A stretch of DNA of 63,745 bases from a virus, in IMG/VR virus record IMGVR_UViG_3300046723_000060, positions 1 through 63,745 of that record, one strand, 5' to 3'. The notes beneath the pieces are model-generated. The model was not told the origin of the DNA. It saw only the letters and a list, made by a program, of their open reading frames with translations, and made no database searches. The translations under genes and the position numbers were made by a program. Within the stretch, counting starts at the first letter, position 1, and each line of letters opens with the position of its first letter. Shown one piece after another: positions 21,559-60,457 of this stretch.

Positions 21559-21695
21559 TTGTCTTTTTTCGGCGGCCTGCCGCCCTTTCTCGCCCACTTT
21601 ACCAGCGTGGCCTTATCATACTTTGCGGCACGAGCCTTACCGCCCTTGCTGCCCATCCACTTCAAAAACTCGCGTATTGACCTTGTTTTTTTCAC
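21555..21695 (-). CDS. 46-residue basic DNA-binding-like peptide
   Basis: A GTG-started small gene, the first after the promoter at 21704-21732. The product has a KTRSIREFLKWMGSKGGK opening, the GGKARAAKYD repeat-like stretch and a basic end (RKGGRPPKKDK) resembling an AT-hook (GRPPKK). Such mini-proteins are frequent in phages. It may act as a regulator of the cassette. Gene reality is supported by the GTGA overlap with the next gene and the promoter; the reading is not conserved by anything I can check. Confidence 0.65.
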   Translation of the reverse strand: MKKTRSIREFLKWMGSKGGKARAAKYDKATLVKWARKGGRPPKKDK

Positions 21696-21765: not shown

Positions 21766-22782
21766 CTAATACTGACCACCGTATACTGTGGAAACTCCCA
21801 AGAGAGTATTGTAGGCTCCATAGTTCTGACCCATCCAGTTGATACCACGGATGCTGAACCAGGCGTCTACGAAATCCTTATCCTGCTGGCGATACTTGGT
21901 CATACGGTCTTTGTACTCGGCTTGTGCGGCTCCCATGAGGAAGCGGAAGTCAGGCCCAGTCGATCGTGGTGAGAGATCCTTATTCGCTTCAGCCCATTCG
22001 TAAGCGTACATTCTGGCTCGAGCGATGACGCAATCTTCGCCTACTTGAACTGGTAATGTGTCAGTAGGGTTGACTAGATCGTCTCCGCGACGGCGACCGT
22101 AAGTAGCGTAGACAAAAGGATTGACTGGCTGGCCCCAGAGCTCAAATAGAGGATAGCCTAGAGTTGCGCTGGCATTATCCGTACCTTGGCCTCTAGCGTC
22201 GATCATGTACGGCACAACCTGAGACGGAAACTGGTAGATAGACCGTTGCGGGTCGATCATATCGAGTTCCGCTCGTTCCATGGTTATGCCTAGCCACATG
22301 TACATGGACATGTTACGGACGGAGATCCATGTCTTGTGATCCTTGAACTGAGCTGGATAGTAGAGCTGGTAGAGCTGGTAGGAGATGTTAGTGCCAGAGT
22401 TGTCGTAGAAGGTGCGGTCTAGAGTAGCGGCACCTGTAATCTGATCATACTGGATTAAGTTATAGATTTGACTGACACCTGACGAGGTACCAGGACGTAG
22501 CTGGCGCTGGGTGATCAGCGAGGTAGGACAGTCAAGTTGAGATTGGTTGATAGCGGCTACAGCGGCAGCATCGAACTGAACGGTATCTGAGCCTAGTACT
22601 ACGGTAACGGTACCTGTGGTAACTACAGACGGGCTGCGCCATGAGGATTCATATAACTGGAAGGACCAGATATCAGAATCCCTGATGACTCCCCAAGCAC
22701 GATTTATCAGGGTGCCTGTAAAACTAAAAGGTAGTTTGGGTACAGCGCCCCTTAATTCGGCCTGCATGTTTTGAAACGCCAC
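21766..22782 (-). CDS. Structural protein of the head region
   Basis: A 338-residue protein from a GTG start with a good AGGAGGT site. The sequence has N-terminal LINRAWGVIRDSDIWSFQLYE, a beta-rich first half (VVTTGTVTVVLGSDTVQFD) and a more helical C-terminal half with ERAELDMIDPQ, ARARMYAYEWAEANK and MGAAQAEYKDRMTKYRQQDKDFVDAW. This mixture and its position three genes after the capsid gene suggest a head-completion, connector or gatekeeper protein. No precise family is recognised. Confidence 0.55.
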   Translation of the reverse strand: MAFQNMQAELRGAVPKLPFSFTGTLINRAWGVIRDSDIWSFQLYESSWRSPSVVTTGTVTVVLGSDTVQFDAAAVAAINQSQLDCPTSLITQRQLRPGTSSGVSQIYNLIQYDQITGAATLDRTFYDNSGTNISYQLYQLYYPAQFKDHKTWISVRNMSMYMWLGITMERAELDMIDPQRSIYQFPSQVVPYMIDARGQGTDNASATLGYPLFELWGQPVNPFVYATYGRRRGDDLVNPTDTLPVQVGEDCVIARARMYAYEWAEANKDLSPRSTGPDFRFLMGAAQAEYKDRMTKYRQQDKDFVDAWFSIRGINWMGQNYGAYNTLLGVSTVYGGQY

Positions 22783-23892: not shown

Positions 23893-25035
23893 TTAGAATC
23901 CTGCGCCGACCAACTGCCAGTTGTCGCGTGGTTGAACGGTATATAGGTTGAGGCCGGCTTTCAGGAACATCACCACGAGGTCAGCGTTGGTTTGGCTCCT
24001 GATCGGTGGCGTAAAGTTGAAGTTATACTCTGGGTCGCTGGCTGGACGGAGCTTCCATCCCTTGACTCGCAGCCAGAAGAATGGCTCGCCGGGAGTACAG
24101 GAAGTTGCGCTCGGATAGTTCGAGATAGCAGCCTGAGTCGTGCTCAAAGTCGGTGTGGTGAAAGCCGTAGGCTTAATGGAGGTCGTCTGGCTCAGGTTAG
24201 ACGGCAGGATAGTGCCGTACTTGGTCGAAGGTGCCAGTTTATCCACGAAGATCGTACCGTCAAGGACCTTGAGGCCGCTGACGCCGATAGACAGGTCCTG
24301 AACCATCTCGAAACGTTGTTTCGGTTCCTGACGCTCGGCTAGGTAGCTGAACAGAGCCTTGTTGCAAAGCCCGATGTCAGGAGGCTGTACGCAGTTCTGA
24401 TAGGCTTCAAAGACTGTTTTGTAAGTGATCTGTCCAGTGTTGCCGGAAGAGTCGCCTACCCATGTCGGAACTGAGTTTAGCACGTTACCGATGGCGCCGT
24501 TGCGTGACTGGCCACCGTAAGTGGTGAATACGTTGCCGTCCCAAGATGGGTTGACGCCATCGTTCAAGGCTTCAGACAGGCCATTGATAAAGATCAGGCG
24601 GTTGGAGCCGGAGATGTTCTGACCATGACGGTAGAAGTCGATGGCGACGTCGGTATTGAGCGCCTGAACTGCGTTCTGCATGTAAGCGTCGATCAGCTTC
24701 ACCTTTACCGCGGGACCGCTGCCCTGGATTACGTTGGTCTGCCAGAGGTTCAGCGGCACCTGTTCCACGTATTCCTTGGGAACGAAGGCGGTAGCCGCGA
24801 TGATCTGCTTCTGCATGACCGTTACATCGGAGCCGGGAGCGATGGCGCCGCCGTTTACACGGTCATACATGAAGGGATCCTGCATGAACGTGCCGCCGGC
24901 AAAGTCTTCTAAAGCTCCCATGGCACGCATCTTACGCATCCAGGGAGTTTCGACGAAGAAGTTATCGACGAGGACGTCGTCCTTCAAATCAGCGAGTGTG
25001 GTTGCTGAGATTTGATCAAATGTTGGGTCAGCCAT
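23893..25035 (-). CDS. Major capsid protein
   Basis: A 380-residue protein placed directly after the coiled-coil scaffold and portal genes, the standard order terminase, portal, scaffold, capsid. The N-terminus (MADPTFDQISATTLADLKDDVLVDNFFVETPWMRKMRAMG) matches long capsid proteins of short-tailed phages. The middle has NTDVAIDFYRHGQ and the C-terminal third has Phe/Trp-rich strands (PFFWLRVKGWKLRP). I infer an HK97-like fold from context. AGGAGAGCAACG serves as ribosome-binding site. Confidence 0.8.
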   Translation of the reverse strand: MADPTFDQISATTLADLKDDVLVDNFFVETPWMRKMRAMGALEDFAGGTFMQDPFMYDRVNGGAIAPGSDVTVMQKQIIAATAFVPKEYVEQVPLNLWQTNVIQGSGPAVKVKLIDAYMQNAVQALNTDVAIDFYRHGQNISGSNRLIFINGLSEALNDGVNPSWDGNVFTTYGGQSRNGAIGNVLNSVPTWVGDSSGNTGQITYKTVFEAYQNCVQPPDIGLCNKALFSYLAERQEPKQRFEMVQDLSIGVSGLKVLDGTIFVDKLAPSTKYGTILPSNLSQTTSIKPTAFTTPTLSTTQAAISNYPSATSCTPGEPFFWLRVKGWKLRPASDPEYNFNFTPPIRSQTNADLVVMFLKAGLNLYTVQPRDNWQLVGAGF

Positions 25036-25063: not shown

Positions 25064-25903
25064 TTAATTCTTGAAATCTCCACTCGTTTGCCGCTCTACT
25101 AATCTCTGCGCTGCACGAGAGACGCGATCGTTCTGCAGCTGAGTCTCGCTCTTGTTCCAAGGCTGGTTATCGCTACGCAGCTTGTCGTCGGGACGGACGG
25201 CGAAAGGAGACTTAGAGGGCAGCATGGGACGAGTCTCGGGATTGCCGAACCTTGAGACCAGTTCCGTTTCCTTTTCCTTGGCGCCTTCGGCTTTCCACTT
25301 GGCTATTTCAGCGTCGCGTTGTTTCTGGGCGGCTTGCTCACGGGCCTCACGAACCTTGAACTTCTCTTCCCAGTAAGGAAGCAATGTCTTGCCAGCGGCT
25401 TGAGCTTCACGGCGGAGTTGTTCAGCGTTAAACGGCTGGCCGGGGAAGAGTCGGGCATGTTCGTTAGCGGCGTCGAGTAATCCTGCGAGGTTAGCGGCGA
25501 AAGCGTCACCAGCTTGCTGGAACTTGTCCATGGTGAGGTAACGGTCGTCGGGAGCGGCTGCCGCAGGCTTCGGTGGCTCAGGGTCATAACCCAAGTCTTT
25601 TGTCACATCGATAAGACCTTGACGATTAGCTTCAAGCAGAGCAGCCTTGGCACGGGCAGCTTCAGCAGCAGAAGCTATGGCTTGATTCTGTACCTGTTTG
25701 AGCTTGCTATCGTTCTCGGTGTACCAGGACTGTACGCGAGCTTCGTAGTTCTTCATGGTCTCTTCGAGCTTGACTGCGGCTTGGCGAGCTTCTTCAGCAT
25801 CAGCTTGAGACTTATCGAATGCACGGCGAGAGACAACCGTGTCTAAAACCTTGATCTCATCATCTGTGGCCCCGTTAGCCTTCAAATACTCTGCGTAAGT
25901 CAT
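25064..25903 (-). CDS. Capsid scaffolding protein
   Basis: A 279-residue, highly charged, helix-rich protein. Start chosen at ATG 25903 because GGAGGCAAAC lies just upstream; an ATG 4 codons earlier has no such site. It has MTYAEYLKANGATDDE, a long coiled coil (QADAEEARQAAVKLEETMKN and on through AAEAARAKAALLEANRQG), a linker with PEPPKPAAAAPDD, and a second coiled coil (REAREQAAQKQRDAEIAKWK). Lack of Cys and the place before the capsid gene are typical of scaffolds that are lost from the mature head. Confidence 0.8.
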   Translation of the reverse strand: MTYAEYLKANGATDDEIKVLDTVVSRRAFDKSQADAEEARQAAVKLEETMKNYEARVQSWYTENDSKLKQVQNQAIASAAEAARAKAALLEANRQGLIDVTKDLGYDPEPPKPAAAAPDDRYLTMDKFQQAGDAFAANLAGLLDAANEHARLFPGQPFNAEQLRREAQAAGKTLLPYWEEKFKVREAREQAAQKQRDAEIAKWKAEGAKEKETELVSRFGNPETRPMLPSKSPFAVRPDDKLRSDNQPWNKSETQLQNDRVSRAAQRLVERQTSGDFKN

Positions 25904-25914
25904 GTTTGCCTCCA

Positions 25915-26229
25915 CTATCCGTTACTGGGCGGTGCCATTGGTTCGCCCGTTGGTGCTGATTGCATCATTCCTGCTACAACCTCGCGCATCAGGTTGTTAA
26001 TCTCACTTACCTTGGCCGATGTGGCTGGAAAGGCTTTAGCAATTGCTCGCAGGTCGCTCACTACCCTGATGGCCAGTTGTGTACCATTCTGCATCGCTGG
26101 ACTGGGTACGGGTGGCGCAGGACTGGCTGCGGTAGGCGTAGTCGGATTAACCTGAGCCGGAGAAGGTGGATTCCCAGGATCTCCCCCTGCACTTGGGGGC
26201 GGAGTCATCGCAACTGGGCTAGCCGCCAT
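25915..26229 (-). CDS. Pro-rich protein preceding the scaffold
   Basis: A 104-residue protein whose first half is nearly all Pro, Ala, Ser and Thr (intrinsically disordered) and whose second half is a single helix-rich segment (AIRVVSDLRAIAKAFPATSAKVSEINNLMREVVAGM). TAATG overlap with the upstream 51-residue gene. The arrangement, a flexible arm plus an amphipathic helix, suits a scaffold co-factor or head assembly protein. Not recognised. Confidence 0.65.
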   Translation of the reverse strand: MAASPVAMTPPPSAGGDPGNPPSPAQVNPTTPTAASPAPPVPSPAMQNGTQLAIRVVSDLRAIAKAFPATSAKVSEINNLMREVVAGMMQSAPTGEPMAPPSNG

Positions 26230-26384
26230 TACGCTTTCTTATGCGCCTGTTTCTTACCCTTGCCGAGCTTGGGCAAAGTCATCGAGTCGGGCTTCATGTC
26301 CGACTTCATCTTGAGCTTGGAGCCGGAACCGCCAATCTTTGCTAGGTTGCCAGCGAATCCGCCTGATTTACTGTGTCCGCGCAT
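26229..26384 (-). CDS. 51-residue basic peptide
   Basis: Starts MRGHSKSGGFAGNLAKIGG and ends LGKGKKQAHKKA, rich in Lys and Gly, without hydrophobic core. A clear site (AGGAGAAGCAAG) precedes it. The TAATG overlap with the following gene supports reality. It resembles the other tiny basic peptides of the left arm (13171-13740) and may be a minor DNA-binding virion protein. Confidence 0.7.
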   Translation of the reverse strand: MRGHSKSGGFAGNLAKIGGSGSKLKMKSDMKPDSMTLPKLGKGKKQAHKKA

Positions 26385-26398
26385 TCTTGCTTCTCCTG

Positions 26399-26485
26399 TT
26401 ACTTCTTACCGAATTTCTTCCCGTGCTCTTTCTTCTCTTCCTTCTTCTCTTTTTCCTTTTTATCTTTTTTGCCGTGATGCTTCAT
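26399..26485 (-). CDS. 28-residue poly-basic/acidic peptide
   Basis: A minimal gene with a perfect AAAGGAGCC ribosome-binding site. The product is made almost wholly of Lys, Glu, His and Gly (MKHHGKKDKKEKEKKEEKK then EHGKKFGKK). It would be a single charged helix. The position between the candidate small RNA and the basic 51-residue gene makes it the first gene of the capsid operon. If not functional as protein it may serve to load ribosomes. Confidence 0.6.
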   Translation of the reverse strand: MKHHGKKDKKEKEKKEEKKEHGKKFGKK

Positions 26486-26516
26486 CGTGGCTCCTTTATG
26501 TCTTGATAGGGCCGTA

Positions 26517-26655
26517 GAAACAAAAAGCCCACTGTCACTAACGCTTGTGTCGTGATCGGAGGCAACCAATCAGGAAGGGCGTTAATAACAGTGGGCCGTA
26601 TCGTGTCTGAAAAATCCCTCGGAGGAAGATTCAGAGGATAACGAATCCTACTGGT
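26517..26655 (-). ncRNA. Candidate phage small RNA with anti-RBS loop and terminator
   Basis: Read on the minus strand, GCCCACTGTTATTAACG pairs with CGTTAGTGACAGTGGGC (26596-26580 with 26543-26527) as a 17-bp stem with two G-U pairs, followed by TTTTTGTTTC. The same stem on the plus strand has two C-A mismatches, so the functional RNA is the minus transcript. The 36-base loop contains GGTTGCCTCC, complementary to the GGAGGCAACC ribosome-binding site used in the right arm. A 5' hairpin (GATTC/GAATC) and a TTCCTCC segment lie upstream. No ORF is present. A promoter sits at 26661-26689. Predicted length is about 135 nt. It could instead be only a terminator of the packaging operon. Confidence 0.55.
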
Positions 26656-26660
26656 GGGAG

Positions 26661-26689
26661 AGTACAGTAACAGGACTAGGTGTTGTCAA
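26661..26689 (-). promoter_or_regulatory. Putative sigma70 promoter for small RNA/capsid operon
   Basis: Minus-strand TTGACA (26689-26684), 17-base spacer, TGTACT (26666-26661). The -35 element is perfect; the -10 has four of six consensus bases. It starts just after the stop codon of the 26699-26929 gene. Because a long terminator-like stem follows within about 60-130 bases, most transcripts would end there unless antitermination occurs. Confidence 0.5.
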
Positions 26690-26698
26690 GAGAATTCT

Positions 26699-26929
26699 TT
26701 AAGGGTGGACGGAGGAGTAGCGAATGTCCTGTTCTTCCCTGAACCTTACACGGCAGATTCCGCCTTGAGACAGAGCTACTTCAAGTGTTCCCGTAGCTTT
26801 CTCGGTACGCAAGCCGATAAGGATTTGTACGAAGTCGAGTGAGCCTTGGTAGACACGTTCTCTGACGAGATGGTAGGTATCGCGCAACGGAGTTGTCGTC
26901 GTAGTCGTAGAGATGGTTACACTCTTCAA
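26699..26929 (-). CDS. 76-residue hypothetical protein
   Basis: TTG start, with the TTGA overlapping the stop of the upstream 55-residue gene. The product has a Thr-run (TISTTTTTTP) then a folded-looking segment (DTYHLVRERVYQGSLDFVQILIGLRTEKATGTLEVALSQGG) ending REEQDIRYSSVHP. No family is recognised. It follows the portal gene and the next small gene in a tight unit, so it may be a minor head protein. It is the last gene before the non-coding small-RNA locus. Confidence 0.6.
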   Translation of the reverse strand: MKSVTISTTTTTTPLRDTYHLVRERVYQGSLDFVQILIGLRTEKATGTLEVALSQGGICRVRFREEQDIRYSSVHP

Positions 26930-27093
26930 TTGCCGTCCTCACTGCGGGGATGAGTAGCGGGAATGTGCATGACTGATAGAGTGGTATTGCGGGAGTTGAA
27001 GTAACGGTCTACTTCCTCCCGTGTCAGGATGGTAGGGGGAACGGTGGGTAGGATGACGGGATAGAAGTCGTCTACTTGCTTATCGTCCTTCAT
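26926..27093 (-). CDS. 55-residue hypothetical protein after portal
   Basis: A short gene found from its overlaps: ATGA with the portal stop and TTGA with the next gene. The product starts MKDDKQVDDFYPVILPTVPPT, continues with LTREEVDRYFNSRN and ends PRSEDGN. The acidic, Pro-rich start and single helix are without known family. It may assist portal or head assembly. Confidence 0.6.
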   Translation of the reverse strand: MKDDKQVDDFYPVILPTVPPTILTREEVDRYFNSRNTTLSVMHIPATHPRSEDGN

Positions 27094-29162
27094 CGGCTCT
27101 CCGTGATTGTTGATCTCGCTCCGTTATCCTTGCTCACTAAACGAGGGGCGGCTTGACCTGAAGGTGGACGACCTTCGGGATTAGGCTTAGCTGGTGGAGC
27201 TGCCGCTCCAGGTGGCGTGCCGGGTGGGACGAGACCTTCGGCTCCAGCGATTTGCTGCATACGGGCTGCGAACTCGAGATCCATCTCTTGTTCAGACTGG
27301 TAACGTTCAATGATTGTGTTGCCGTCAAGCTGGCCATAGTTGGGCAATTCCCAACTCTCTGCAATGGTCTGACTATCAATCTTCACGCCGGCTTTTCTTA
27401 GTTGTACAAGCCCTAGCTTCATAGCCATCTGAGTCATCTCATGGAGAGAGTTAGGCAGGATGAAGAATCTGAGATTATCGGCAAATACTCTAGCTCTGGT
27501 GATCTTATCTGAGGCTGAACCAAACTTGGGATCTTCGCCAGGTAAGTGAGATGGCACAAGCGAGGCTGGGTCGAAGTCGAATACCTCGGGATGTACGCCG
27601 TCCATGCCTACGATTTGCATCACTCTGGGTGTAGTGTAGTACTGCAGGACGAGATACTTGACCATCACGCCTAAGTCGCGCATCGGTGGTTCCATTGAGC
27701 GGGACATGTCCTCTACGATCGGGCCTTGAGTCTCCATGATCTTTTCTAGTTCGTCCATGGAGCCGACTGTTCTGGCCTTAGCTAGAGCTTGAATATCGTT
27801 GATAGCCAGTTGAGCGTCCATGTCGGCACCTAGTTGCTCGTACATCTGCATGGACTCTGGATAGACTTTGAGGACGTCCATGGGCACGGCCAAGTCTACG
27901 CCGATACCGTCTGCGGCGTTACCGTCTAGGCCGATACGAGCTCTAGGCTGCATGGGATCGAACCGTCGCATCTCTTTCATCGAGGTAGCGTTGGTATCGA
28001 ACTTGAGAGCAGGATCAAGTTGAGCGCGGACCTTGTCCATGTTGCCGCGCATGATTTCCTTGCGGGATTCGTTGAGTTCGTAACCGTCGTGAACGAGGCT
28101 GAAGCCTAGAGGTTCCCATGGCCAAGAGTCGGGACTGAATGAGATGCCGGGGAACATGCCGTGCCAGTCAAATCCTGGACCATCGTACATGATACAGCGG
28201 TCGGAGCTTATTAGTAGACGGCGGTAAGGATAGAGTCTCGCATCGTTCTCGTCGGCCTTACGTGTGAGAGCGCGGCCGTTAGCGTCTTGACCTACATGAA
28301 TCTCTTGTCCGATGTAAGGGACGGTGTAGGACCACGTTGAACCCGGTTCGCCCATCGGTATTGGTCTGTCAGTAGTGTTGATACTTAGATCAAGGACCCA
28401 AGTCTTTCTTACTGGGACAAGTAGGTCGGGTAGACCTGAAGTCTCAGCTCTCGGTGTCTTACCGAAGATGCGTTGCAACACATTGCCTAGAGCGGCTTTG
28501 TGTACGGCGTCGTTCTGATACCAATACTTGCTAGCAGAAGGAACTAGTCTATCTTGGTAAGAAGGAAACATGCCATGTGCCATAGCAACCGGCATTTCGT
28601 CAAGAATGGTGCATGCGTACGCTTCTTGCCAATTTCCCGAGGACGGTAACTGGGTAGGAAGGACAGATGGAGCCCCGTAAGTGAGGAGCTTGATATCACC
28701 TCGCCCTGTTCCGTGCATGTCACGACGATACACCGGATGAATCCACCCTCTACCGGTAGCGGCTGCATACTGTAGCGCCTCCTTTACCGCACGGTCTGCG
28801 AAACTCTCGAGATACCATGCGCGGGTTACTTTATTCATCATCAGCGCTTGAGGAGCGTAAGCCTTGTTATCGCTGTGATAGCCCCAGAAGGGACGGAGCT
28901 TGCTCATGACTGAGACTACTTCTCTGATGTTGCGCTTCAGGCGGTTTGGGTTAACGCGGCTGCGGTAACTAGCATTGTAGGTTGGCTGAGTATCGAGGCC
29001 GGAGATGGTGTCGAGAGCTTTACGGAAGTCCTTGAACCCACGCTGGGACTTTAACCAGGCTAAGCCATCGCCTGTAGCATCATCGAGCCAACCGATACGT
29101 TCTGATTCGGCCACTGCTGCTGGAGGTAGTTGCCAGCTCTTGAATGAGAGTTTATCAGCCAC
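27090..29162 (-). CDS. Portal protein
   Basis: A 690-residue protein from a GTG start that overlaps the upstream stop. It follows the large terminase by one gene and precedes scaffold and capsid genes. The N-terminal region contains NRLKRNIREVVSVMSKLRPFWGYHSDNKAY and AVKEALQYAAATGRGWIHPVYRRD, and the middle has DSWPWEPLGFSLVHDGYELNESRKEIMRGNMDK, where an aromatic-rich strand is followed by the long stem/wing helices. The final 100 residues (QEMDLEFAARMQQIAG then PPGTPPGAAAPPAKP) are helical and then Pro-rich. Length is typical for podovirus portals. Confident from order and composition. Confidence 0.78.
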   Translation of the reverse strand: MADKLSFKSWQLPPAAVAESERIGWLDDATGDGLAWLKSQRGFKDFRKALDTISGLDTQPTYNASYRSRVNPNRLKRNIREVVSVMSKLRPFWGYHSDNKAYAPQALMMNKVTRAWYLESFADRAVKEALQYAAATGRGWIHPVYRRDMHGTGRGDIKLLTYGAPSVLPTQLPSSGNWQEAYACTILDEMPVAMAHGMFPSYQDRLVPSASKYWYQNDAVHKAALGNVLQRIFGKTPRAETSGLPDLLVPVRKTWVLDLSINTTDRPIPMGEPGSTWSYTVPYIGQEIHVGQDANGRALTRKADENDARLYPYRRLLISSDRCIMYDGPGFDWHGMFPGISFSPDSWPWEPLGFSLVHDGYELNESRKEIMRGNMDKVRAQLDPALKFDTNATSMKEMRRFDPMQPRARIGLDGNAADGIGVDLAVPMDVLKVYPESMQMYEQLGADMDAQLAINDIQALAKARTVGSMDELEKIMETQGPIVEDMSRSMEPPMRDLGVMVKYLVLQYYTTPRVMQIVGMDGVHPEVFDFDPASLVPSHLPGEDPKFGSASDKITRARVFADNLRFFILPNSLHEMTQMAMKLGLVQLRKAGVKIDSQTIAESWELPNYGQLDGNTIIERYQSEQEMDLEFAARMQQIAGAEGLVPPGTPPGAAAPPAKPNPEGRPPSGQAAPRLVSKDNGARSTITESR

Positions 29163-29613: not shown

Positions 29614-31860
29614 TTAACGATACCTTTCCATCTGGTCTATTTCATACGCTAATTCGGACACCGTTGCAATCTCTCTTTGTTCCATATCCTTGGGTGAGAA
29701 CACGTTGGACGGTCTACTGGGCTGTAAGTTGAGTGGAGGTAAGGTTGAAGGGTTGACTGACCGCTTCTTACTTCTTGCGGCGATAGGTTCAAGGTCATGA
29801 GGACAGAAGCAGGCCATGGCGGCAGCAAAGACACGGTCATCGTGCTTGCCATCTTCGTGTTCGAGCTTCTCCCTGCCCGTGGCAGTAACTTTCGATTCAA
29901 AGGTTCGCATCTCTTCTAGCAGCCACGGTGAGTTGATGTGTAGCCATAAGTTCTTGGCGCAGGTAGCGAAGTAGGTGGTGAGCATCTGACGGGACCAGGT
30001 GCCGGAATACCACCCACGCTTGCGGGAGATGGCTTTGCTGCGTTGAGGGTTCTTGCCATCGTAACGGCTCATCATGTGGAAGTTAGAGTAGCCCAAACGG
30101 GCCATGTCCTTCTGGCACATATCGCCAACCGAGGCTAGTTGCTCGATACTTACGTAAGGCTCGCGCCAGCGAGTGCTCGATGGATCCATATGCGTCTTGT
30201 AGTAGGCGGCAATGCCTAAGACGAATGCGAAGGCTTCCGCATGGTTGATGTAAGAGCTAGATAGTTCGGCTACCTGAGTGTCAGGATCGTCGTCGTTCTT
30301 CCCGATAGCCCACACTGATATTGAGGTAGCGTCTTCGCCGCGGCCGGCTGCTGTATCTACGCCTATTGAGTATCTGACTCCAGGCTGAGGATGAGCCCAG
30401 ATGAAGAGTATTCCCGTAGCTGTGCCGGCATCCTTGGGATTAGGCTGGATTTGCTGCTCGAGCAAGGGTACCAGTTCCCAGCGGTAAGTCTCATCGCGCA
30501 GGTTAGTGTAACGGATGGGGATACGTTCCTTGTCGTAGTCGATATATTCTGTAGGTGGTTCGTGGTCGGCTTCTATCGATTGACCAACGATACAGAACAT
30601 GTCAAAGGTCTTCTCACGGCGTGTTTCAATCTCGGCTAATGTCTGGTGGCTGAAAGCGCTGGTGATAGACTTCTGCAAGGCTTCTTCATCGTCAGCGCAC
30701 ATTTCCTGATACCACTTGGCGGTGGTGCCGCCGCGCTTCGATTCTTCATGGCCAAACTCCCAGAACCATTGCTGTTCCCGTGGCATACGCCAGTAGAGGC
30801 CAGAATGTACGCCGCGGCGATGTTGATCTTCGACTAGATGCTTCTTTAAGAGTGGGTTTGAATCAACGTAGAGTTCGCACTTGGCAACGTGCTCGCGGGT
30901 GTCCTGGTTGGGATACCATCCTTCTGGGATAGGAAAGTCGTAGTTTATCCATTGCTGCTTGGGATACATCTCTACACCGCAGAACCATGGAAGGAATAGT
31001 GGGCAGTGACGAGCTTTGCGTAGATGCCAATAGTCGCGGGATGAACGCCAGCGGTCGGGCCACCATCCCTTATCACCTTCGCCGGAGGATTCTAGGGCGC
31101 CGAAGACGTTAGGTGAAGCGTGGACGGCGCGCAAGAGAGACGATTCAATCTGGTTCTCAGCGTCGGTGTAGGTTGCTACTTCGGATAGGTGATAGATGGT
31201 GGGAGTGGTGCCACGGGCGATACCAGACATCTGGGCGCCGTGCTGGAATGAGACTGAAGTCTGGCAGCCGCCGAAGCCCATTAGGCCGCGGTCAGATTCA
31301 ACCTTACGTGTAAGTTCAGGACGTAGCCAGACAGGCAGATATTCGTAGAAGAGACGAATCATCTTGGCCATTTCTGCGGTCTTGGTCTGGTCGGCGCTGC
31401 CAATAACAGCGTTTACGCCGTAACCGAAGACGATACGTAGTCCGATTAGGAGTTCAACGAGCGTAGACATGCCTAATTGCCGGGCTTTCAAGATGATGAA
31501 CTCTAGCGTTCTTCCAGAGGCTTCTAAGTCGGAGATGATGTTATAGAAGATTCGTTGAGGTACGCGGAAATTGAATCGGTGGATGGTTCCATCGTCATCT
31601 TTCAGGTACGCATAGCGGGTTAGAGCATAATCGGCGTCGCAACTGACCAGGAGTTGTTCGTTTAGGATCCAGTCATGCTCGAATTGAGTGAGGTTCTGAG
31701 TTCCCTTGGGAGCGCCGTTCTGGTCCAGTTCATACATGTTGTAGCGCTTGAGATGATCTTCAAAGGCTTGGACATCGGAAATGGAGTGTGGTTCGAGGGT
31801 TATCTTGAATTCACGTTGAGCTTCGTCGATACGTTGAGCGATGCGGGAGGGAGCGTACAT
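29614..31860 (-). CDS. terL: Terminase large subunit
   Basis: A 748-residue packaging motor. The N-terminal ATPase has IILKARQLGMSTLVELL at about 122-138 (Walker-A-like K-A-R-Q-x-G-x-S) and TIYHLSEVATYTD as the Walker-B-like segment. The C-terminal RNase-H-fold nuclease has YSIGVDTAAGRGEDATSISVW near 490 (first catalytic Asp) and EHEDGKHDDRVFAAAMACF near 690 (the HDD motif). It uses ATP to move DNA through the portal and cuts concatemers. Length is at the upper end of the family because of an N-terminal 100-residue extension. The start TGATG overlaps the methyltransferase stop. Confidence 0.95.
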   Translation of the reverse strand: MYAPSRIAQRIDEAQREFKITLEPHSISDVQAFEDHLKRYNMYELDQNGAPKGTQNLTQFEHDWILNEQLLVSCDADYALTRYAYLKDDDGTIHRFNFRVPQRIFYNIISDLEASGRTLEFIILKARQLGMSTLVELLIGLRIVFGYGVNAVIGSADQTKTAEMAKMIRLFYEYLPVWLRPELTRKVESDRGLMGFGGCQTSVSFQHGAQMSGIARGTTPTIYHLSEVATYTDAENQIESSLLRAVHASPNVFGALESSGEGDKGWWPDRWRSSRDYWHLRKARHCPLFLPWFCGVEMYPKQQWINYDFPIPEGWYPNQDTREHVAKCELYVDSNPLLKKHLVEDQHRRGVHSGLYWRMPREQQWFWEFGHEESKRGGTTAKWYQEMCADDEEALQKSITSAFSHQTLAEIETRREKTFDMFCIVGQSIEADHEPPTEYIDYDKERIPIRYTNLRDETYRWELVPLLEQQIQPNPKDAGTATGILFIWAHPQPGVRYSIGVDTAAGRGEDATSISVWAIGKNDDDPDTQVAELSSSYINHAEAFAFVLGIAAYYKTHMDPSSTRWREPYVSIEQLASVGDMCQKDMARLGYSNFHMMSRYDGKNPQRSKAISRKRGWYSGTWSRQMLTTYFATCAKNLWLHINSPWLLEEMRTFESKVTATGREKLEHEDGKHDDRVFAAAMACFCPHDLEPIAARSKKRSVNPSTLPPLNLQPSRPSNVFSPKDMEQREIATVSELAYEIDQMERYR

Positions 31861-36454: not shown

Positions 36455-36475
36455 GAGCACTGGGAGGCAACGTAC

Positions 36476-37028: not shown

Positions 37029-37046
37029 AGCAATAGGAGGCAACCT

Positions 37047-39089: not shown

Positions 39090-39355
39090 CAAACAAACAC
39101 AGAATCGTTTGCACTTGTAATCCGAAATGCTCAAGCGTGGAGTACTGTGACGGATGGAAGTGTGAGAATTGCAACAATATGGCACACCTAGACGGATTTC
39201 ATCCTTGCGACGAACACGGCCGCGAGATGGAACCAGTGGACGGATGGAATGGCTTATACGTGTGCGGTAGGTGCGCCAATGTCTACGAACAACGAACTGG
39301 CAAGCGTTATCTCACCACAGAAGATGTGGCAGCAGGGGTACGGGCAGGGCAGTAG
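39086..39355 (+). CDS. Cysteine-rich zinc-binding protein
   Basis: An 89-residue protein with nine cysteines in several pairs (VCTCNPKC, YCDGWKCENCNN, CDEH, VCGRC), probably two small zinc knuckles. ATGA overlap. The 3' end (GGGCAGGGCAGTAG) is part of a 31-base repeat. Possible anti-host regulator; no family known. Confidence 0.7.
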   Translation: MTNKHRIVCTCNPKCSSVEYCDGWKCENCNNMAHLDGFHPCDEHGREMEPVDGWNGLYVCGRCANVYEQRTGKRYLTTEDVAAGVRAGQ

Positions 39356-39373
39356 AGGTAAGAGACGGTTAAG
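39343..39373 (+). repeat. 31-bp direct repeat, copy 1
   Basis: GGCAGGGCAGTAGAGGTAAG continues into AGACGGTTAAG and recurs at 39702-39732 with one difference (G to A). The repeat covers the end of the preceding gene and the leader of the next, before a GGAGGCAACCATGAG start module. It may be a footprint of gene duplication by recombination between leaders. Confidence 0.8.
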
Positions 39374-39382
39374 GAGGCAACC

Positions 39383-39700
39383 ATGAGGTCGATACTGAAA
39401 GGATTCACTACGCAAGTAGAAGCAAACGCCTTTGGCAAAGAGCTGCCAAGGCCCACACTTAGATCGTGGCATATTAACCGTGAGAAGTCTGGACACATGC
39501 GCTACGTAGTTGCCACTGATACAGAAAGAGTTGCTAGCGTCTATACCGAATCAAATGCTCGTCTAATCGCAGCGGTGCCGGACCTTTTAGACTTAGTATG
39601 CGCCTTTGAAAGCTACTTGGAAGATAACAGTCAAAGCGAGCGGCGCCGTGCTCATTGCTTGGCAGAAATAAAGAATGTTCTCGACAAAGCTATAGGGTAG
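39383..39700 (+). CDS. 105-residue protein with NARLIAA motif
   Basis: Product MRSILKGFTTQVEANAFGKE..., with NARLIAAVPDLLDLVCAFESYL in the middle, a motif common in small phage proteins (A-N-A-R-L-I-A-A-A-P-E-L-L) of unknown function, and related to the gene at 39761. It uses GGAGGCAACC as ribosome-binding site. Probably a paralogue diverged in its first half. Confidence 0.7.
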   Translation: MRSILKGFTTQVEANAFGKELPRPTLRSWHINREKSGHMRYVVATDTERVASVYTESNARLIAAVPDLLDLVCAFESYLEDNSQSERRRAHCLAEIKNVLDKAIG

Positions 39701-39701
39701 A

Positions 39702-39732
39702 GGCAGGGCAGTAGAGATAAGAGACGGTTAAG
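39702..39732 (+). repeat. 31-bp direct repeat, copy 2
   Basis: Second copy of the element at 39343-39373, one mismatch. It lies after the stop of the 105-residue gene and is followed by AACGATTTGACGGTTTAGG and the GGAGGCAACCATGAG module. Confidence 0.8.
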
Positions 39733-39760
39733 AACGATTTGACGGTTTAGGGAGGCAACC

Positions 39761-40045: not shown

Positions 40046-40068
40046 GATACGGAGGCAAGGAGGCAACC

Positions 40069-46897: not shown

Positions 46898-46914
46898 GGG
46901 TTAAAGGAGGCAAC

Positions 46915-47115
46915 ATGAAGCTGACAGGTAAGGTAGTCACCATCGAATCTGGGGACAGTTACACCGATAAGCTCGAACGGATTGTTATTCGTTTCGATCA
47001 GGCCGACAGTTGTTACCGAGACGTTCGCATTGCCAACACCGATGGGTATTACCTGAATGATATCGTCGAAGTGAATACTGTTTTATTGCCCAAAGTAGCT
47101 CGCGCCGCGTCTTAA
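46915..47115 (+). CDS. 66-residue beta-type protein
   Basis: ATG directly after AAAGGAGGCAAC. Product MKLTGKVVTIESGDSYTDKLERIVIRFDQ, then YRDVRIANTDGYYLNDIVEVNTVLL. Alternating strands without helices give an OB- or SH3-like look. It lies at the head of the recombination module. Function not recognised. Confidence 0.65.
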   Translation: MKLTGKVVTIESGDSYTDKLERIVIRFDQADSCYRDVRIANTDGYYLNDIVEVNTVLLPKVARAAS

Positions 47116-49015: not shown

Positions 49016-49040
49016 GATTCTTTAAACGGAGGCAACCGAA

Positions 49041-58679: not shown

Positions 58680-60457
58680 TAGAATGGCTTAAACGAACTG
58701 GCCTTGCTACCAGACTTAGTGGCAGTACCCATATCAGGTGAAGATGGCGGTGGAGAAGTGGACATTCCATACCCAGTCTTAGCCGAACCAATCTCCCGTT
58801 GCCACGCCGCATACTCATTGTTTACCCGGTCCTCGGCAAGTCCAATCATGTTATGCATCGTCTGCGGATCAATCACTACCCCGCGCAGCAGGTCTGGTGT
58901 CATCTCAAACTCATTCCCAATTCCAACTCGCTTCAGTAAAGTAGCCATCCACGGAGCGGAGTTCTGCGCTTCATCAATGATTGGCTGAGTGATTCGGCCA
59001 CCTTTTTGGAGCCCAGTGGTCATACCAATATGGTTATAGAGTAGGTTGATCATCGCCTGCTGGTCGCCCTTAAGTGCTTTAGGCAACGCTTCTTGCATGA
59101 CCTTATATCGAGTAACGGATCCATTGTAAGCGTCATAGGCTTTAGCCACGCCTGGAGGAACTTTACCACCAACGATCCTTGCCCCAGGTGGAAGTCCCAT
59201 TGCAGTTGCTGCATTAGATTGCGGTGAAGAAGACTTCTTTGACTGTGGACCAAAAGCTGGCTTGGATACAGTTGTTCCGCTAGGTTGCATTGAAGGTGTC
59301 GAAACTGGAGTTGGAGGAGCTGGAGTTCCCCCTTTACGTCGCTCGCTAACATTTGTTACAGGAACTAGCGCAGTAGAACCATCTGGTTGCTGAACCGTCT
59401 TCCAAGTCTTAGTTGTAGTTGTCGTATCAGCCGCAGAAGGATAATACTTTTTAGTCCCTTCAGGTAGCGGCTTCCCAGATTGGTCAGTCAGCTTTTTATA
59501 AGCCTCATACCCGATAGCATGGTCGCCATTAGGCATAACCACTTCAACCATCGTTGGCTTCTGGAAGGGAACAGGCTGATCTACCTTACGACCATCCTGA
59601 GTTGAATAAGTCCCTTCAAGTGGATCAAATACAACTGGCTCGCCAGTATCTGGATCGACAAGATTCTTTGCCTGTAGATGACTAGCAGGTCCAAAGGTTC
59701 CTGTGAGGGCGTAACGCTTTGCCGCCATAGAATCTAAGTTTCCGAATATCTGCTTGGCTTCATTAGTCCACCTATTAATCTGTGCTTGGTAGACACGCTG
59801 CTGGTCTGTAAGACCCTGCCCTACCTGTGCCTGATGTTGTGCAAACGGAGCGGCAACGGATTGTTCTAGCGCACTCGGCTGCGGCCTTACCGGAGGAGGC
59901 GGCGTCATGGTAACGCCATTGTCCATCACTGTCGGCGTCGATCCGGTCGGTGGAGTCATGGTCACTCCACCTTCACCTACCGTAGACCCATACTGTGGCG
60001 TAGGAGGAACTTGCATACCGCCAGGACGGCCCTGCTGTTCCTGTTTACGCCTAAGGATAAAGTCGATAATTCCATGCGCCTTGTCTAGCGCACCTTTCGA
60101 TTCCTTATTGACCCCGATAATCTTTCCATACTGTTGCAGCGCTTCATCTTTCTGCGCGGTCAGATCATCTTGTTCCTGCTGAGTTAATGGACGTTCGCCA
60201 CCGACTCCACCATTAAGTGTAGGATCCCATTTCGTACCCTTGGCTATTTGACCGATTGCTGTAGCCGCATTGGTACGATACATCTGAGCATGAGCAACTC
60301 TCTGCTGATGATGCGCTTGAAGTGCCTTATCAAGCGAACCTCCAGGCTCAGCCATCGCTCCAAGGAATCCTTCAGGACGATCAGGGCCTACAGATCCTTG
60401 AGGAACCTGTGAGGCTTCATCGAAGGAATCAGTCAATACTGGAGGTTTAGTAGCCAT
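58679..60457 (-). CDS. Presumed internal virion/ejection protein 2
   Basis: A 592-residue protein. The N-terminal third is helical and Gln-rich (LDKALQAHHQQRVAHAQMY, LTQQEQDDLTAQKDEALQQYGKI). Then come two copies of a MTPP element (GGVTMTPPTGSTPTVM, NGVTMTPPPP) and a long Gln-rich region. No Cys, no membrane segment, mostly disordered or helical; length and neighbours suggest a DNA-injection core protein. TAATG junctions with both neighbours. Inferred from position. Confidence 0.55.
   Translation of the reverse strand: MATKPPVLTDSFDEASQVPQGSVGPDRPEGFLGAMAEPGGSLDKALQAHHQQRVAHAQMYRTNAATAIGQIAKGTKWDPTLNGGVGGERPLTQQEQDDLTAQKDEALQQYGKIIGVNKESKGALDKAHGIIDFILRRKQEQQGRPGGMQVPPTPQYGSTVGEGGVTMTPPTGSTPTVMDNGVTMTPPPPVRPQPSALEQSVAAPFAQHQAQVGQGLTDQQRVYQAQINRWTNEAKQIFGNLDSMAAKRYALTGTFGPASHLQAKNLVDPDTGEPVVFDPLEGTYSTQDGRKVDQPVPFQKPTMVEVVMPNGDHAIGYEAYKKLTDQSGKPLPEGTKKYYPSAADTTTTTKTWKTVQQPDGSTALVPVTNVSERRKGGTPAPPTPVSTPSMQPSGTTVSKPAFGPQSKKSSSPQSNAATAMGLPPGARIVGGKVPPGVAKAYDAYNGSVTRYKVMQEALPKALKGDQQAMINLLYNHIGMTTGLQKGGRITQPIIDEAQNSAPWMATLLKRVGIGNEFEMTPDLLRGVVIDPQTMHNMIGLAEDRVNNEYAAWQREIGSAKTGYGMSTSPPPSSPDMGTATKSGSKASSFKPF

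Follow-up and report, generated by a model that had tools for sequence, protein, structure and literature searches.

A candidate phage RNA complementary to early-gene ribosome-binding sites

The window analysed here is the whole of a 63,745-base soil-phage record (IMG/VR IMGVR_UViG_3300046723_000060). Its late genes run on the minus strand, where the large terminase (29614-31860), the portal (27090-29162) and the capsid (23893-25035) genes were recognised with PHROGs, and early-type genes run on the plus strand from about 36,400. A compact unit is located on the minus strand between the portal and capsid genes. It starts with a promoter formed by TTGACA (26689-26684), a 17-nt spacer and TGTACT (26666-26661), followed by a leader (26598-26655, with the start of transcription inferred from the promoter at about 26654) that folds a hairpin just before a terminator-like hairpin (26521-26597). 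A simple consensus scan found no other promoter-like site at 25900-27400; a different one (TTGACA-N17-TATAAG) was noticed on the minus strand at 21732-21704, in the gap between the gene whose frame ends at 21766 and the one whose frame starts at 21597. No ORF is internal to the RNA; a 56-codon TTG frame (26399-26569) is an extension of a 28-codon lysine-rich ORF (26399-26485, minus strand) that more plausibly starts at ATG 26485, directly after the hairpin; similar lysine-rich ORFs are present in relatives.

To evaluate the structure of this unit, we folded both strands. The minus strand folds better (−41.7 kcal/mol, z −9.0) than the plus strand (−34.6 kcal/mol). The original prediction had described a 17-bp stem with a 36-base loop; we observed that the outer stem comprises 19 pairs (26597-26579 with 26544-26526), including two internal G-U pairs and a terminal G-U, and that it is followed by TTTTTG, with the T tract at 26526-26522. 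The loop is not open, because UGAUUGG-UUGCCU-CCGAUCA forms an apical hairpin (26553-26572), so that the fully exposed part is UUGCCU. The anti-RBS word GGUUGCCUCC (26558-26567, minus strand) straddles this tip and the apical stem, and part of it is closed by pairing.

We next examined the sites in the genome that are complementary to this word. Its exact complement, GGAGGCAACC, occurs at 26558 (the loop itself), 37036, 39373, 39751, 40059 and 49028, and with one mismatch at 36463 and 46906. Allowing up to one mismatch, there are 10 matches against 3.85 expected, a number reached in 1 of 100 shuffles. All seven right-arm sites lie just upstream of an ATG of an open frame, in agreement with the original prediction. 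These predicted target sites are GGAGGCAACG (36463-36472) before ORF 36476 (phrog_18452, described as DNA ligase), GGAGGCAACC (37036-37045) before ORF 37047 (duplex energy −21.5 kcal/mol), 39373-39382 before ORF 39383 (phrog_1273, −24.3), 39751-39760 before ORF 39761 (a phrog_1273 paralogue, −24.0), 40059-40068 before ORF 40069 (−24.1), GGAGGCAACA (46906-46915) overlapping the start of ORF 46915, and 49028-49037 before ORF 49041 (phrog_4652, −25.4). The proteins are mostly of unknown function. These sites are not all independent: the leaders at 39373 and 39751 are part of a duplication (39340-39760) before the two paralogues, leaving about six independent cases, and the word before ORF 40069 is duplicated in tandem (GGAGGCAAGGAGGCAACC, 40051-40068). 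The first of these duplications suggests that RBS words may spread with gene duplication. In a search that did not use the loop, GGAGGCAAC was the most frequent RBS-position 9-mer of the whole record, with seven of its eight copies at translation starts, the eighth in the loop, and none on the other strand. Similarly, GGAGGCA is present at 10 of 50 early RBSs but at only 1 of 54 late RBSs (p 0.003). A possible late target, GGAGGCAAAC (25904-25913, minus strand), precedes ORF 25064-25915, the gene just upstream of the capsid gene.

To determine whether this arrangement is conserved, we searched viral contigs with the portal and capsid proteins and obtained some 40 relatives; phage records gave no near DNA match, and a search of genome contigs gave no relative and thus no host. 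At the corresponding place most relatives have a strong terminator-like hairpin, although a few records (G019 and G024 among them) gave none at the thresholds of the scan. TTGACA is present 68-98 nt before the hairpin in all 27 distinct sequences compared, while the second promoter element is more variable, often CGTANT or TGTANN at about N17. Many leaders fold a hairpin at the same place as in the window, often with a 2-3-nt bulge on the 3′ side, which is possibly a protein-binding site, although this is based on single-sequence folds and not on a covariation test. The loop is variable: it has 5-11 nt and no anti-RBS word in about a third of lineages, and 16-57 nt in the rest, often with a C/U-rich tip. 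Between the window and its close relative G001, 28 pairs show three double compensatory changes, two one-sided changes and one break, and one compensatory A-U to C-G change falls in the apical stem. MAFFT misaligned the stem of another relative, G003, so these counts were made on this pair only, for which the shuffle control has no power (63/500). A pattern search for the outer stem found only one match, in another contig without the loop or a terminator, which we took as chance. Searches of viral contigs for the loop words gave many matches, but the only ones in a promoter-hairpin context were records already known.

We then asked whether the loop and the early RBS words change together. In G003, whose portal is 92% identical, the loop is GGAUGCCUCC (also found in G002), and the most frequent early RBS word, again obtained without using the loop, is GGAGGCATC, carrying the single base that is also changed in the loop. 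It is present at four starts, three of them with exact GGAGGCATCC, whereas GGAGGCAACC is absent. The G003 orthologue of ORF 46915 has GGAGGCATCC before its start, but the early arms share few orthologues, and the word thus sits largely on different genes. G001 keeps GGUUGCCUCC and has exact GGAGGCAACC at two early starts, GGAGGCAA variants at others, and GGAGGCA at 6 of 35 early RBSs, although by itself it shows no early/late contrast. The possible late target is GGAGGCAAAATG in G001 and GGAGGCATGAAATG in G003, before the corresponding 278-282 aa gene. In G012, a relative with a 91% identical capsid that lacks the long loop, GGAGGCA is found at 0 of 37 early RBSs. G014, from a distant branch, has the early words GAGGAGG and AGGAGGC, and the loop UUUGCCUCCUCU. 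In G024, the early RBS word AAGGGGGA occurs 14 times, nearly all at gene starts and none on the other strand, yet no matching loop was found, and its partner, if any, is elsewhere.

To further test this relationship over the wider family, every loop was matched to the early RBS windows of every genome, using 12 genomes with a long loop and some early arm. Counting 8-mers of each loop proved too noisy, and therefore longest exact matches and duplex energies were compared after swapping loops. By longest exact match (double-centred), the own pairing exceeded all of 20,000 permutations (p<5e-5), and the result remained with nonredundant loops (p 5e-5) and without the window's clade (p 0.001), but was not observed for late RBSs (p 0.65). 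Duplex energies agreed, with p<5e-5 for early RBSs in 11 genomes, in contrast to early gene bodies and further-upstream windows (p 0.24-0.70) and late RBSs (p 0.12); the result stands after normalising to composition-shuffled loops (p 5e-5). When the mean over all early genes was used rather than the ten best, the effect was weaker (p 0.0025; 0.11 without the window's clade). The fit of the own loop was weak or absent in three genomes: G013 by energy, G025 by match length, and L007, which has only 12 early genes. Gene starts were obtained from a simple in-house caller, the same for all loops, and for two records, G021 and G008, the hairpin was chosen by its GGCCCG stem and TTGACA rather than by the automatic first choice.

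From these results, we consider that the unit is, with high confidence, a real structured RNA unit, and we propose, at a probability of about two in three, that it acts in trans as an antisense RNA. In the window's clade and several other lineages, the apical loop is complementary to the Shine-Dalgarno region, including non-ribosomal flanking bases, of that phage's own early genes. We infer that an RNA of roughly 130 nt is transcribed when the late arm is active, a timing deduced from position only, and that its loop pairs with early mRNAs over the Shine-Dalgarno sequence and up to the start codon, blocking 30S binding and lowering early protein synthesis. Early genes carrying the word, which are a minority, would then form a translational regulon, with loop and word co-evolving. 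Two tests named in the original prediction came out in its favour: the match between loop and RBS is conserved and covaries in close relatives, and the hairpin is not just a terminator of the portal operon, because a TTGACA promoter sits between that operon and the hairpin. Nevertheless, the repression of early translation rests on sequence evidence alone and is held with moderate confidence, and the lineages with a short loop indicate that the antisense part is not essential to the unit.

Among the alternatives, the one that survives best, although unlikely as the sole explanation, is a late leader resembling the lambda pR′-6S RNA-tR′ arrangement, in which the promoter would fire constitutively and an antitermination factor would allow RNA polymerase to pass the terminator into the capsid operon, the loop sequence being incidental. 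The promoter and terminator stand directly upstream of the capsid module throughout the family, including short-loop members, and a folded leader hairpin is common. However, this does not explain the covariation of loop and RBS, the joint absence of loop and word in G012, or the early-only fit of the own loop, and no antitermination factor was identified, although none was sought. Both functions can coexist; since short-loop relatives keep the promoter, leader and terminator, the ancestral function is probably in cis, and the antisense loop would be an addition, or a part lost in some lineages. It is much less likely that the hairpin is a plain terminator of the portal operon, with a promoter for the next genes and a chance complementarity of a CCUCC to GGAGG. 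Short-loop members do look like plain terminators, but the matching extends beyond the Shine-Dalgarno core to bases that differ between genomes, and random windows of the same genome holding a Shine-Dalgarno complement rarely do as well at 9 bases (p about 0.01 or less in the window, G001, G003 and G014); the apical stem compensation and the promoter lying between the operon and the hairpin also argue against it. The possibility that GGAGGCAACC is a DNA site for a phage protein is improbable, because although the word has the same orientation on the plus strand at all exact places, its position is tied to ATG spacing, it lies at the tip of an RNA hairpin with compensatory changes, and in the other matching lineages the matched part includes the Shine-Dalgarno core. 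The least likely alternative is that the RNA, whose loop contains CCUCC like the 16S rRNA 3′ end, acts mainly on host mRNAs or as an anti-SD mimic on ribosomes, given that genome-specific bases outside CCUCC track the phage's own early RBSs.

Small antisense RNAs are already known in temperate phages. P22 sar, which pairs with ant mRNA, lambda OOP (PMC12197685) and probably also P1/P7 c4 each have one or few targets, and several are cis-encoded, whereas here one RNA matches a shared word on several early genes, and the word changes with the loop. No Rfam family, c4 included, matched at the gathering score; at E up to 5 only sar (RF00262) appeared, with 13.8 bits against a cut-off of 43 (E 4.1). 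DicF and other prophage trans sRNAs block translation by base pairing and have a terminator-like structure, but they target host mRNAs and not a phage-wide early RBS word (PMC12197685).

The closest parallel on the target side is the start-associated sequences (SAS) of cluster K mycobacteriophages, 13-bp words at the starts of right-arm genes that are conserved beyond the part that pairs with 16S rRNA (PMC3203893). The window's word, GGAGGCAACC, does not fit the SAS consensus GGGATAGGAGCCC, but it is also conserved at many early starts beyond the 16S-pairing core. The binding partner of the SAS, RNA or protein, was left open, and no RNA partner has been described in the papers read; the authors noted one reverse copy in each of four phages, not obviously tied to a gene start (PMC3203893). 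We observed that in Mycobacterium phage Anaya (JF704106) this copy, at 59870, lies in a 385-nt gap before the last genes and forms the tip (CCUCCUAUCC) of a two-part hairpin, complementary to the core of the SAS at early gene starts, which is the same architecture as in the window. The hairpin is present in six Anayavirus phages examined, with a diverged tip in Amohnition and Unicorn, and was not found at that place in seven others examined. Stem pairing is 96.6%, with two pairs showing double changes, which is modest evidence, and some records annotate a gene across the site. Late transcription in this group starts near the right end (PMC11373665). Covariation of the SAS with the loop was sought but could not be used as evidence, as the SAS is the same in Unicorn, Amohnition, Shandong1, Pixie and Anaya while the loop differs in Unicorn and Amohnition.

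A broader and more tentative reading is that some phages encode a late antisense RNA that silences a whole set of early genes through a shared, lineage-specific ribosome-binding word, with loop and word co-evolving as a private code, and that this principle recurs in unrelated phages, including cluster K mycobacteriophages. For the phage studied here, the unit would be an RNA-level early-to-late switch acting on a regulon rather than on a single gene, with a readable code that can be compared and exchanged in reporters. It also gives a direct, testable hypothesis for the start-associated sequences of mycobacteriophages, whose role was reported as unknown in 2011 (PMC3203893) and still ill-defined in 2024 (PMC11373665).
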